Shown here one piece after another: positions 4,839 to 56,252 of a stretch of 62,404 nucleotides of DNA. Every line of letters begins with the position of its first letter. Position 1 is the stretch's first letter. The stretch comes from Treponemataceae bacterium. Its GTDB lineage: Bacteria > Spirochaetota > Spirochaetia > Treponematales > Treponemataceae. A model generated the notes under the pieces. The model saw only the letters and a program-made list of their open reading frames with translations. It was not told the origin of the DNA and did no database searches. The position numbers were made by a program, and so were the translations under genes. The stretch lies in NCBI GenBank assembly GCA_024402495.1, contig JAKSTR010000007.1, positions 1 through 62,404 on the forward strand, read 5' to 3'.

Positions 4839-7229
4839 ATGGCAGAACCTAATATTATTCCTGCAGATCAGGTACTTTCTAATAAATTGTATTTAATTCC
4901 GTTAGCCGGTCACCCGATTTTTCCGGGTGTTTTTACCCCGCTTATGATAAGTTCGCCGGAAGACGCCAACGCTGTTGAGCTTGCATACGGCGCCGACGGT
5001 TTGATTGGTATTGTAATGGTAAAAAACGATGTCGAAGAACCCGGTGCCAGCGACCTTTATACCGTTGGTACTGCGGCGCGCATCGTTAAAAAAATCAATT
5101 TGCCGGACGGCGGCGTAAATATTTTTATTTCTACCGTAAAGCGTTTCCGCATAAAAAAGGTGCTCAGTCCGCGCGAACCGATGGTGGCGCTGGTTGACTA
5201 CCTTGAAGACGAAGAAGACGACACTTTTGAAGTAAAAGCCTTAACCCGTGCCTTGATAAGCGAAATGAAAGAAATTTCGGACAACAATCCGCTTTTTTCG
5301 GAAGAAATGCGCCTGAACATGGTAAACATCGACCAGAGTGGAAAAATTGCCGATTTTATTGCTTCAATTTTGAACGTTGATAAAGAAGACCAGCAGCGCA
5401 TTCTTGAAATGACAAACGTGCGCCAGCGCATGGAACAGGTTCTTGTCTTCATCAAAAAAGAACAGGAACTTTTGCGCATTCAGAAGAAAATTCAAAGCGA
5501 AATTAACGAAAGAATTGAAAAAAATCAGCGCGAATATTTTTTGAAGGAAGAACTGAAGAACATAAAAGAAGAACTTGGCATGATAACCGATGCCAAAAGT
5601 TCTGACTATCAGAAATTCAAGGAAAAAATAGACGCTTTTCATTTTGAGGGCGAAATTAAGGAAGCCGTTGAATCTGAGCTGGAAAAACTTTCGCTTATGG
5701 AAGCCGGTTCCAGCGAATATACGATGGTGCGCAATTACATAGAAACTATTGCAAATCTTCCGTGGAACGACCCTGAACCTGAAAATTATGACCTTGCGGC
5801 GGCTAAAAAAATGCTTGAAGCCGACCATTACGGGCTTGAAGACGTTAAAAAGCGCATAATTGAATATCTTGCCGTTAGAAAACTCAGAAACGACAGCAAG
5901 GGTTCTATTATTCTGCTGGTTGGCCCGCCGGGCGTTGGTAAAACCAGCGTCGGACGTTCTATTGCCAAAGCCATGAACAAGCCGTTTTTCAGGTTTTCTG
6001 TTGGCGGTATGCGCGACGAAGCCGAAATTAAAGGTCACCGGCGTACTTACATTGGTGCAATGCCGGGAAAAATCATTCAGGGGCTGAAGATTGTAAAATC
6101 TAAGGCGCCGGTTTTTATGATTGATGAAATTGACAAAATGTCATCAAGCTATCAGGGCGACCCTTCTTCTGCTTTGCTGGAAGTGCTTGACCCCGAACAG
6201 AATGTGGCTTTCCGCGACCATTATCTGGATTTGCCGTTTGACGTTTCAAACATTCTGTTTGTTCTTACGGCGAATTCGCTGGATTCCATTCCGGGGCCGC
6301 TGCTTGACCGCGCAGAAATTATCAGTCTTTCGGGCTATATTGATCAGGAAAAGGTTGAAATTGCCAAAAAATACCTTGTACCGCGCAGCCTTGAAAAAAA
6401 CGGCCTGAAAAAAGGTCAGGTTAAATACAGCAAGGAAATGCTTCTGGCAATTGCCAATAAATATGCGCGTGAAGCCGGCGTGCGCAATTTTGAAAAAAAT
6501 CTTGATAAAATACACCGCAAGTATGCAACTGAACTTTTAACGGGCGACGCATATTTAGCCGCTCAGGACGATGAACAGCGTGCCGAAGCGTTGTCTGCAA
6601 AACTTGAAGTTACAGGCGAAGATATTGCCAGATACCTGGGTAAGCCGATTTTTGACGAAGACGAAATTAAAAAAGCCGATACCGCCGGTACGGCAATCGG
6701 GCTTGCGTGGACAAGTATGGGCGGCGATACTTTGATTATTGAAGCTATAAGCAACCACGGTAAAGAAGGCATGCAGTTAACCGGGCAGATGGGCGACGTA
6801 ATGAAAGAATCTGCAAGCATTGCATTAAGCTGGGTGCGCCGTTACGCAATAGAAAAACGCATCTGTGCAAGCGACTGGTTTGACAAAAACTTTATTCACC
6901 TGCACATACCGGAAGGAGCAACGCCAAAAGACGGTCCTTCTGCCGGTATAACGATGTCAACGGCTTTGCTTTCGCTTGTTGGCGGAAAGTGCATAAAACC
7001 GGCTTTTGCCATGACCGGCGAACTTTCGCTTACGGGCAATGTTTTGCCGATTGGCGGCTTAAAGGAAAAAACGGTGGCGGCTAAACGCAATAAAATTAAG
7101 CACATTATTATCCCAAAACAAAATGTGCGCGATTTGGACGACATTCCGGAACACGTTAAAAAAGGTTTAACCTTTCACCCGGTAAGCAGAATGGAAGAAG
7201 TTGTTGAACTGATTTTTGATTCGCTTTAA
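4839..7229 (+). CDS. lon: ATP-dependent protease La (Lon)
   Basis: The protein has 796 residues, the usual length for bacterial LonA. The N-terminal substrate-binding domain begins LYLIPLAGHPIFPG. A coiled-coil region (about 205-260) follows. The AAA+ module has Walker A GPPGVGKT (362-369) and Walker B MIDEID (427-432). The protease domain has the Ser-Lys dyad, Ser701 in PKDGPSAG and Lys744 in GGLKEK. Lon degrades misfolded and regulatory cytosolic proteins as a hexamer. GAGG lies 8 bases before ATG4839. The gene stands alone and ends at a strong terminator. No heat-shock operator was recognised. Confidence 0.97.
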   Translation: MAEPNIIPADQVLSNKLYLIPLAGHPIFPGVFTPLMISSPEDANAVELAYGADGLIGIVMVKNDVEEPGASDLYTVGTAARIVKKINLPDGGVNIFISTVKRFRIKKVLSPREPMVALVDYLEDEEDDTFEVKALTRALISEMKEISDNNPLFSEEMRLNMVNIDQSGKIADFIASILNVDKEDQQRILEMTNVRQRMEQVLVFIKKEQELLRIQKKIQSEINERIEKNQREYFLKEELKNIKEELGMITDAKSSDYQKFKEKIDAFHFEGEIKEAVESELEKLSLMEAGSSEYTMVRNYIETIANLPWNDPEPENYDLAAAKKMLEADHYGLEDVKKRIIEYLAVRKLRNDSKGSIILLVGPPGVGKTSVGRSIAKAMNKPFFRFSVGGMRDEAEIKGHRRTYIGAMPGKIIQGLKIVKSKAPVFMIDEIDKMSSSYQGDPSSALLEVLDPEQNVAFRDHYLDLPFDVSNILFVLTANSLDSIPGPLLDRAEIISLSGYIDQEKVEIAKKYLVPRSLEKNGLKKGQVKYSKEMLLAIANKYAREAGVRNFEKNLDKIHRKYATELLTGDAYLAAQDDEQRAEALSAKLEVTGEDIARYLGKPIFDEDEIKKADTAGTAIGLAWTSMGGDTLIIEAISNHGKEGMQLTGQMGDVMKESASIALSWVRRYAIEKRICASDWFDKNFIHLHIPEGATPKDGPSAGITMSTALLSLVGGKCIKPAFAMTGELSLTGNVLPIGGLKEKTVAAKRNKIKHIIIPKQNVRDLDDIPEHVKKGLTFHPVSRMEEVVELIFDSL

Positions 7230-7259: not shown

Positions 7260-7298
7260 ACTGCCTGCATTTTATAAAAAGTGCAGGCAGTTTTATTT
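7260..7298 (+). terminator. Terminator of lon
   Basis: ACTGCCTGCA and TGCAGGCAGT form a 10-bp perfect stem around TTTTATAAAAAG, followed by TTTATTTT. Confidence 0.9.
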
Positions 7299-7311
7299 TG
7301 CGCGCAATTAA

Positions 7312-7390
7312 CAACCTCGCCGCAATCAGCGAGGTATGTTGTTCTTAATAAGCGGTTGCAGTCGGTTTTAATATCCCGATGCACGAATAA
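7312..7390 (-). repeat. Dispersed structured repeat, copy A
   Basis: Read on the minus strand, this copy runs from TTATTCGTGC through GACTGCAACCGCTTATTA and CATACCTCG to GCGGCGAGGTTGTT. It matches 56137-56252 at most positions but lacks that copy's internal hairpin segment. The GTTGTT end contains CCTCGC/GCGAGG flanked by AACAA/TTGTT and can fold. It lies directly after the lon terminator. It is non-coding. Confidence 0.75.
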
Positions 7391-55398: not shown

Positions 55399-56094
55399 AT
55401 GTCACAAAACGAACAGGCAAAAAACGAAGAAAAAGTTAACTTTTCTGATAAGTTGAGCCAGTTTCTGGTTAAATTTCGCTTTCTGTTTTTAGGAATTATT
55501 CTGGCACTTCTTGTTGCCGTTGCTCTGGTTTTGGTAATTTCAAGTACAAGTACCAAAAAAGTAGAAAAAGGTCTTACAGAAATCGATTCAATTACTTACG
55601 AACTTTCTGAAGCAAGATCTGTTTTGAAAGATGCTGAATTGTCAGCAAAAGAAAGTGCATTGTTTGATCGTGCAAAAACAGTTGCCGATGCAAATACAAA
55701 AGGCGTTGTTGCCGTTCGCGCAAAAATGCTTATGGCAGAAATTGCATTTGCAAAAGCTGATTATTCTAATGCCTGCCAGTATTGGCTTGATGCTGTTAAC
55801 GCAGATTCAAAAGCTTATACAGCCGGTATTTGCTATTATCAGTGTGGTGTTTGCAGTGAAGAAATGGGCGATTTGGATTCTGCCGTAAAATATTTGCAGA
55901 CCGCCGCTGATACAGAAAACTTTGTTGCTGCTCCTCGCGCATTGTTCAATATTGGTCGTATTGAAGAAACCCGCGGAAAAATGGATAAAGCAGCAGAAGC
56001 TTATAAGAAACTTGCAGAAGCTTTCCCTAATGACGGCTGGACATCTTTGGCAAAGACAAGATTGTTAAATCTTGAAATTAACGGAAAACTTTAA
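55399..56094 (+). CDS. Membrane-anchored TPR protein (YfgM-like)
   Basis: The protein has 231 residues with TAGGAG seven bases before ATG55399. A short charged cytoplasmic N-terminus is followed by one membrane helix (about 33-55, FLGIILALLVAVALVLVIS) and a periplasmic helical domain with TPR pairs: KMLMAEIAFAKADYSNACQYW, YYQCGVCSEEMGDLDSAVKYL and LFNIGRIEETRGKMDKAAEAYKKL. The topology equals YfgM, a partner of the periplasmic chaperone network and the Sec translocon in proteobacteria. The assignment is by architecture only. It ends at a clear terminator. Confidence 0.78.
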   Translation: MSQNEQAKNEEKVNFSDKLSQFLVKFRFLFLGIILALLVAVALVLVISSTSTKKVEKGLTEIDSITYELSEARSVLKDAELSAKESALFDRAKTVADANTKGVVAVRAKMLMAEIAFAKADYSNACQYWLDAVNADSKAYTAGICYYQCGVCSEEMGDLDSAVKYLQTAADTENFVAAPRALFNIGRIEETRGKMDKAAEAYKKLAEAFPNDGWTSLAKTRLLNLEINGKL

Positions 56095-56110
56095 GATATT
56101 TGATATTTGA

Positions 56111-56136
56111 AGCCTGCTAATACGGCAGGCTTTTTT
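56111..56136 (+). terminator. Terminator of the TPR gene
   Basis: AGCCTG and CAGGCT (extendable) pair around CTAATACGG and are followed by six Ts. A dispersed repeat begins directly after it. Confidence 0.85.
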
Positions 56137-56252
56137 ATTCGTGCGGAGGGTTTAATACTCCGACGCTTGCGTCGTAATAAGGAGTATTAAATCAGACTGC
56201 AACCACTTATTACGAACAGCATACCTCGATGCTTGCGGCGAAGTTGTTGATT
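56137..56252 (+). repeat. Dispersed structured repeat, copy B with hairpin insertion
   Basis: This copy matches 7312-7390 (minus strand) from TTATTCGTGC to GCGGCGAAGTTGTT. It contains an extra segment of about 35 bp in which TTTAATACTCC (56151-56161) pairs perfectly with GGAGTATTAAA (56181-56191) around an inner GACGC/GCGTC hairpin. It is non-coding and lies between a terminator and a lipoprotein gene. Confidence 0.75.

Follow-up and report, generated by a model that had tools for sequence, protein, structure and literature searches.

Copies of the repeat within the window

The window, that is, the whole stretch of 62,404 nucleotides analysed here, contains two members of a genome-wide repeat family, called copies A and B. 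The two related copies are real and align as first described in a sequence-only reading of this DNA, except that copy A extends to position 7306, not 7312. The covariance model, to which both copies themselves contributed, scored copy A at 96.6 bits (7306-7390, minus strand) and copy B at 82.5 bits (56135-56252, plus strand). Apart from these copies and their antisense shadows, nothing in the window scored better than E = 0.49.

Copy B lies behind the intrinsic terminator of a TPR gene (56112-56136, plus strand), composed of a hairpin of -15 kcal/mol (56112-56130) and a T-run that stands directly upstream of the target of copy B and supplies it. The target pentamer TTATT (56135-56139, plus strand; 7390-7386 on the minus strand for copy A) lies outside the element proper, as indicated by analogy with the empty sites found in congeners of genome G021 and by the flank profile of 122 elements. 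The element itself is a full-length form, CGTG...GTTGATT, of 113 bp (56140-56252, plus strand), recognised by the covariance model and by its BLAST family. Its left hairpin (56151-56191), supported by folding and by covariation across genera, has an exact 11-bp stem in which TTTAATACTCC (56151-56161) pairs with GGAGTATTAAA (56181-56191), enclosing an inner stem-loop, GACGCTTGCGTC (56162-56173), and a 3'-side bulge (56174-56180). The linker between the hairpins, ACTTATTACGAA (56205-56216), is unpaired in the consensus structure and ends with an invariant GAAC. The right hairpin (56217-56249), placed by alignment to the model and the consensus structure, is decayed, with several mismatches. The 3' end, ATT (56250-56252), was placed from the junctions, and the family end TTGATT resembles the target motif.

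Copy A is an 80-bp, middle-length form without the inner part of the left hairpin (7306-7385, minus strand; target pentamer 7386-7390), as assigned from the covariance model score and the size classes. The perfect 11-bp stem reported for the additional segment of copy B is present, but the segment is not an extra: copy B represents the common full-length form and copy A a shortened one. Likewise, the position just after a terminator holds in full for copy B, which has the same orientation as the TPR gene. For copy A it holds in position only, since the lon gene (ORF 4839-7229) and its terminator (7261-7294, identified from the sequence) are on the plus strand and are faced by the 3' end of copy A in the opposite orientation. 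No terminator hairpin was found at the insertion end of copy A.

No Rfam family reached its gathering score in the window, and only sub-threshold matches were found near copy B. One of them, a Trp operon leader match (56057-56138; 27.9 bits, gathering score 41), spans the last part of the TPR gene together with the terminator, and is probably just the terminator hairpin.

Size and distribution of the family

A covariance-model search of the whole genome had been proposed in the sequence-only reading; with a model built from 21 own-genome copies, it returned 44 matches at E ≤ 0.01 in the 2.97 Mb of the genome (G000), which contradicts a family of only two copies without conservation. BLAST with copy B found 50 matching stretches, some of which are pieces of a single copy, and about a dozen short forms of ~54 nt were additionally present. 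Read in the direction of copy B, the consensus of the family is TTATT followed by CGTGCGGAGGGTTTAATACCCCGACGCTTGCGTCGTAAAAAGGGGTATTAAACCCGACTGCAACTACTTATTAAGAACAACATACCTCGCTGCTTGCGGCGAGGTTGTTGATT. Three main size classes were distinguished, of about 113, 80 (copy A) and 48 bp, TTATT excluded.

Including the own genome, 16 of 40 genomes were positive, and the relatives carry the same architecture with other stem sequences. The number of matches was 6-18 in each of four congeners, 19 in G010, 7 in G021, 28 in G037 (4,059,867 bp) and 11 in G040 (2,843,201 bp). When 296 genomes drawn evenly from the phylum were searched with stricter filters, 16 were positive, all within one order: 15, counting the own genome, fall in the own family and one in a different family. 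At least 107 loci were returned by a pattern scan across 84,980 species genomes, and among the matches listed all belong to Treponema, Spirochaetaceae or other spirochaetes. The viral, phage and plasmid collections yielded no match to the repeat.

The same internal insert is present in elements at several sites: in four elements of G021 and two orthologous ones of G040, in four of G006, and in two or three of G010. Such variants thus appear to have been amplified after they arose.

Two-hairpin structure

Since the own-genome copies alone show no covariation, copies from different genera were used, and the structure alignment comprised 22 full-length elements from eight genomes. Thirty-six pairs form two hairpins, with 95% of the cells paired. 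Changes on both sides were observed in 23 of the 36 pairs, compared with 9.3 in shuffled alignments and at most 8 when the alignment was slid. On the top strand, G.T pairs exceed A.C pairs by 42 to 12, or by 26 to 12 without two hypervariable pairs, the cells being non-independent. This excess suggests that the top strand is the folding strand, either as DNA or as RNA.

Within single elements, the loop of the left hairpin agrees with that of the right one in 15 of 22 cases (5.1 in shuffles), as if both hairpins were read by one protein. A bulged T is present on the 5' side of the right stem in 79 of 122 copies. The left hairpin begins only two bases from the cut site.

Insertion sites and target motif

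The flanks of 13 copies from G021 were searched within its genus, and four of the insertion sites were found uninterrupted in congeners, with flanks that are mostly 92-99% identical. With the insertion point marked by a slash, the empty sites are CCCCATTTTATT/TCTATAA and AATTAATTTTATT/CAAATTG, each in three genomes, TTAAATTTATT/TACGACG in one genome, and GATTTTTTGATT/AGAAC, which occurs in related genes of one family (L305 and L307; L306 is slightly different). At the last site, the element (copy L118) interrupts a gene of the PD-(D/E)XK nuclease family (PF12784). At all four sites, CGTG...GTTGATT stands directly 3' of a pre-existing T(T/G)ATT, i.e., TTATT or TGATT. The left pentamer of L118 is TGATT, the same as in the empty relatives, and hence the pentamer belongs to the target.

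The flank profile of the 122 elements shows the same one-sidedness, with a conserved 5' flank, TT(T 71%, G 20%, C 6%)ATT, and a 3' flank without preference. The last bases of the element, TGATT, fit the target motif, and in the tandem pair L097 the second copy stands directly behind the first. Intergenic DNA has diverged too far among the own-genus relatives to give base-exact junctions at the copies of the window. In G001, the interval that separates the orthologues of copy B's neighbouring genes contains a terminator and no element.

Target-site duplications at the borders, which the sequence-only reading had led us to look for, were not visible beyond 3 bp; instead, the element is inserted behind a fixed motif. 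Because ATT is invariant in the target across the 122 sites, a three-base duplication is formally compatible with the data and a longer one is excluded. Of the possibilities named in that reading, a miniature mobile element is strongly supported: the family exceeds 40 copies, orthologous sites are empty in related genomes, the target motif is fixed and subfamilies have been amplified.

A classical MITE, derived by deletion from a DDE transposon and duplicating three target bases, ATT, would account for the ATT found on both sides of CGTG...GTTG at the sites examined. We regard it as unlikely, however, because the ATT never varies over 122 sites and the fourth base differs between the two sides (T, G or C on the left, G on the right). 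Moreover, the ends lack terminal inverted repeats (CGTGCGGAGG versus CAACAACC; CGTGCGG and GTTGATT are non-complementary). There is a hairpin near each end, and two unlike, conserved internal hairpins would not be expected of a MITE.

Search for a parent element and a transposase

The whole genomes of G037, G021, G010 and G006 were searched with the full element for separated left and right ends of an autonomous parent, and none of the main candidates inspected proved to be a left and a right end enclosing a transposase. None of 22 Y1 loci showed a good match to the element. A Y1 transposase gene is present in G000, G003, G037 and G294, and no Y1 over the cut-off was found in the Treponema denticola clade, G001, G002, G006, G010, G021, G040 and others; the clade and the genomes named here bear the element. 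The presence of Y1 does not track that of the element. Weak Y1 matches below the cut-off occur in G040, G021 and G010, and the one in G040 sits in an ORF of 380 aa that shows no obvious features of Y1. Among 18 genomes scanned for Y2, the single match was in an element-negative genome and the element-bearing genomes had none. Guide-target pairing of the IS608 type was not evident in the element.

The only IS200-type tnpA of the own genome (contig C186, L173:1119-1900) lies directly behind a terminator T-run, at a locus without a match to the repeat. In G294, a 60-bp near-perfect palindrome (L381:2054-2113) consists of two head-to-head left ends (ATTCGTGCGGAGAGG...CCTCTCCGCACGAAT) in a REPIN-like arrangement, a few hundred bases from an IS200-type tnpA; it is the only one among the loci fetched.

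Spread as a REP/REPIN-type element by a domesticated RAYT (TnpA-REP) transposase would agree with the dispersed, extragenic and hairpin-forming nature of the repeat, which has no inverted repeats, with the single head-to-head pair in L381, and with three Y1 genes of G037 that are RAYT-like by score. REPs carry a conserved GTAG motif (PMC8266576), but this motif is absent from the conserved columns of the 22 elements. In addition, element-rich genomes are without a Y1 gene over the cut-off, and the Y1 loci are without a good element match, all of which makes this origin very unlikely. The term REP-like, proposed earlier, is thus a loose fit that covers the hairpins but neither a GTAG motif nor a resident RAYT gene.

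Placement at terminators, apparent internal deletions and decay

Within the own genome, 17 of 47 copies stand directly 3' of a strong hairpin, and the same is true of 30 among 364 intergenic T-runs taken for comparison (odds ratio 6.3, p = 1.4e-6). Among copies drawn from a mixture of other genomes, with a cruder control, there was no terminator excess. The repeated placement after terminators noted earlier is borne out by the own-genome enrichment and by copy B, which has the T-run of the TPR-gene terminator as its target, but not by copy A. Many own-genome copies follow terminators because terminator T-runs supply the TTTATT motif; these T-runs are harmless places of insertion, and exposure of the non-template strand at terminators may also help insertion. 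The replication-strand bias was not significant in G037 and G040 (19:10, p = 0.14; pooled, 25:15, p = 0.15).

At two orthologous sites, G040 carries a form of ~138 bp and G021 a form of 52 bp, which is joined across common GCTTGCG tips, as a deletion running from one hairpin tip to the other would produce. The short and middle forms of the element resemble products of internal deletion. Across the clade, the 3' ends of 5S rRNA genes (Rfam RF00001) hold full copies, a copy with an insert, remnants of ~25 bp or no element. Such 3' ends in G040, G041 and G021 (L356, L357, L358, L359, L360 and L164) repeatedly hold the element or its ~25-bp remnants, TTATTCGTGCGGAG..GTTGTTGATT.

These observations also bear on the idea of a conserved structured RNA, a 3'-end stabiliser or a small RNA, which would have been duplicated around the genome and kept its structure for an RNA role. 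Strong covariation, the preference for G.T pairs on one strand and the frequent position at gene 3' ends are all in its favour. However, single-strand DNA hairpins explain the covariation equally well, close relatives have empty sites and occupancy varies between species, the L118 copy interrupts a gene, copies decay freely and many lie beyond terminators, so that we give this explanation little credence. The small RNA suggested earlier is not needed to explain copies that are polymorphic between species and often placed just beyond terminators. Hairpin sites used as single strands are characteristic of attC, and oral treponemes are known to carry integrons, but spread of solitary integron attC sites by an integron integrase is a negligible possibility, as attC recombination cuts at G/TT, the empty sites put the junction after ATT with no G there, and the copies are dispersed and form no cassette arrays.

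Proposed mode of movement

The one-sided target motif, the absence of inverted repeats and of a visible duplication, the hairpins at the ends and the target-like 3' end lead us to read the repeat as a single-strand element mobilised in trans. It is probably a mobile DNA element of ~113 bp that is non-autonomous and that most likely moves in single-stranded form with an enzyme supplied in trans, as IS200/IS605 elements do. As no parent IS was found and Y1/Y2 were undetectable in several element-rich genomes, we do not claim membership in IS200/IS605: we say that the repeat works like these elements, not that it is one of them.

According to this model, the top strand would become exposed and fold into the left and right hairpins. 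An enzyme acting in trans would then bind both hairpins, whose tip sequences tend to match, and cut after T(T/G)ATT at the left end and after TGATT at the right. The excised strand would join 3' of another TT(T/G)ATT; insertion there without visible duplication was seen at the sites themselves, and the chemistry of joining is presumed. Finally, the short and middle forms would arise as copies decay where they stand, through deletions joining short repeats of one hairpin to those of the other. Long and short forms at orthologous sites were observed, and deletion is the direction of change that we assume.

The enzyme that moved the element has either disappeared after the last transpositions, or has diverged beyond the reach of the Pfam models, or is of another kind. 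In a less probable version of the last case, the mover would be an enzyme outside the known Y1 and Y2 HUH transposases, a treponeme single-strand nuclease, so far unrecognised and possibly domesticated, which would recognise hairpins in pairs and cleave after T(N)ATT. Such a nuclease would explain insertion differences between congeners in complete genomes without a detectable Y1 gene. The family raises the question of how a hairpin element of IS200/IS605 style is mobilised where the genome has no recognisable Y1 transposase.

Comparison with known elements

The repeat is of the same kind as other small non-autonomous hairpin elements (PATE, REPIN), and the missing transposase together with the fixed pair of unlike hairpins makes it a variant. 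Elements of the IS200/IS605 group have no inverted repeats, make no target duplication and insert 3' of a specific tetra- or pentanucleotide (PMC7290912). PATEs (palindrome-associated elements), which are end-only derivatives of IS200/IS605, are similarly short and non-coding, have a hairpin at each end and are thought to be mobilised in trans; their parent family inserts 3' of a fixed short motif and makes no target duplication (PMC7290912), and the treponeme repeat likewise stands 3' of such a motif with no duplication visible. Unlike for PATEs, no parent IS with matching ends was found for the treponeme repeat, many element-rich genomes are without Y1, and its left hairpin stands two bases from the cut. 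ISDra2 inserts 3' of TTGAT (PMC2806898), nearly the same as TT(T/G)ATT. This IS200/IS605 member is an autonomous element of Deinococcus with tnpA and tnpB, and the likeness concerns the motif; no sequence relation is claimed.

REPINs, or REPs with RAYT, are likewise dispersed extragenic hairpin pairs that are probably moved in trans by a single-strand enzyme. In contrast to them, the treponeme repeat is without GTAG or a consistent RAYT, and its two hairpins differ from each other and keep a fixed order instead of being inverted copies. In another spirochaete, the IS605B stem loops of Borrelia are hairpins without a transposase that have a 5'-side bulged T (PMC2775950), a feature shared here by the right hairpin of most copies. 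The Borrelia stem loops have a parent IS605B on plasmids, whereas the treponeme repeat has no known parent and was found on chromosomes and contigs.

The open PMC literature contained no published description of the family; ISfinder and subscription papers lay outside this scope, and a name may already exist. The family is a common repeat of treponemes, oral species included, with a precise insertion rule and with presence/absence sites that differ between species, and it could serve as a strain marker. It may also account for some intergenic candidates for structured RNAs and for a gene disruption.

Other repeats associated with the element

At five loci of G037 (L106, L110, L112, L113 and L171), a further small hairpin, of the type AAGAAC(CCGCTTTCGCGG)GGGAG, lies inside the left or right hairpin of the element and is perhaps another tiny mobile repeat. 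One copy of the own genome (L011, contig C130) is adjoined by a different repeat, CATTCCGAACATGTTTCGGAATCCGCGGTGGATGCTGAACCAAGTTCAGCATGACG, in several tandem units, and a sequence similar to this repeat follows lon in G003.
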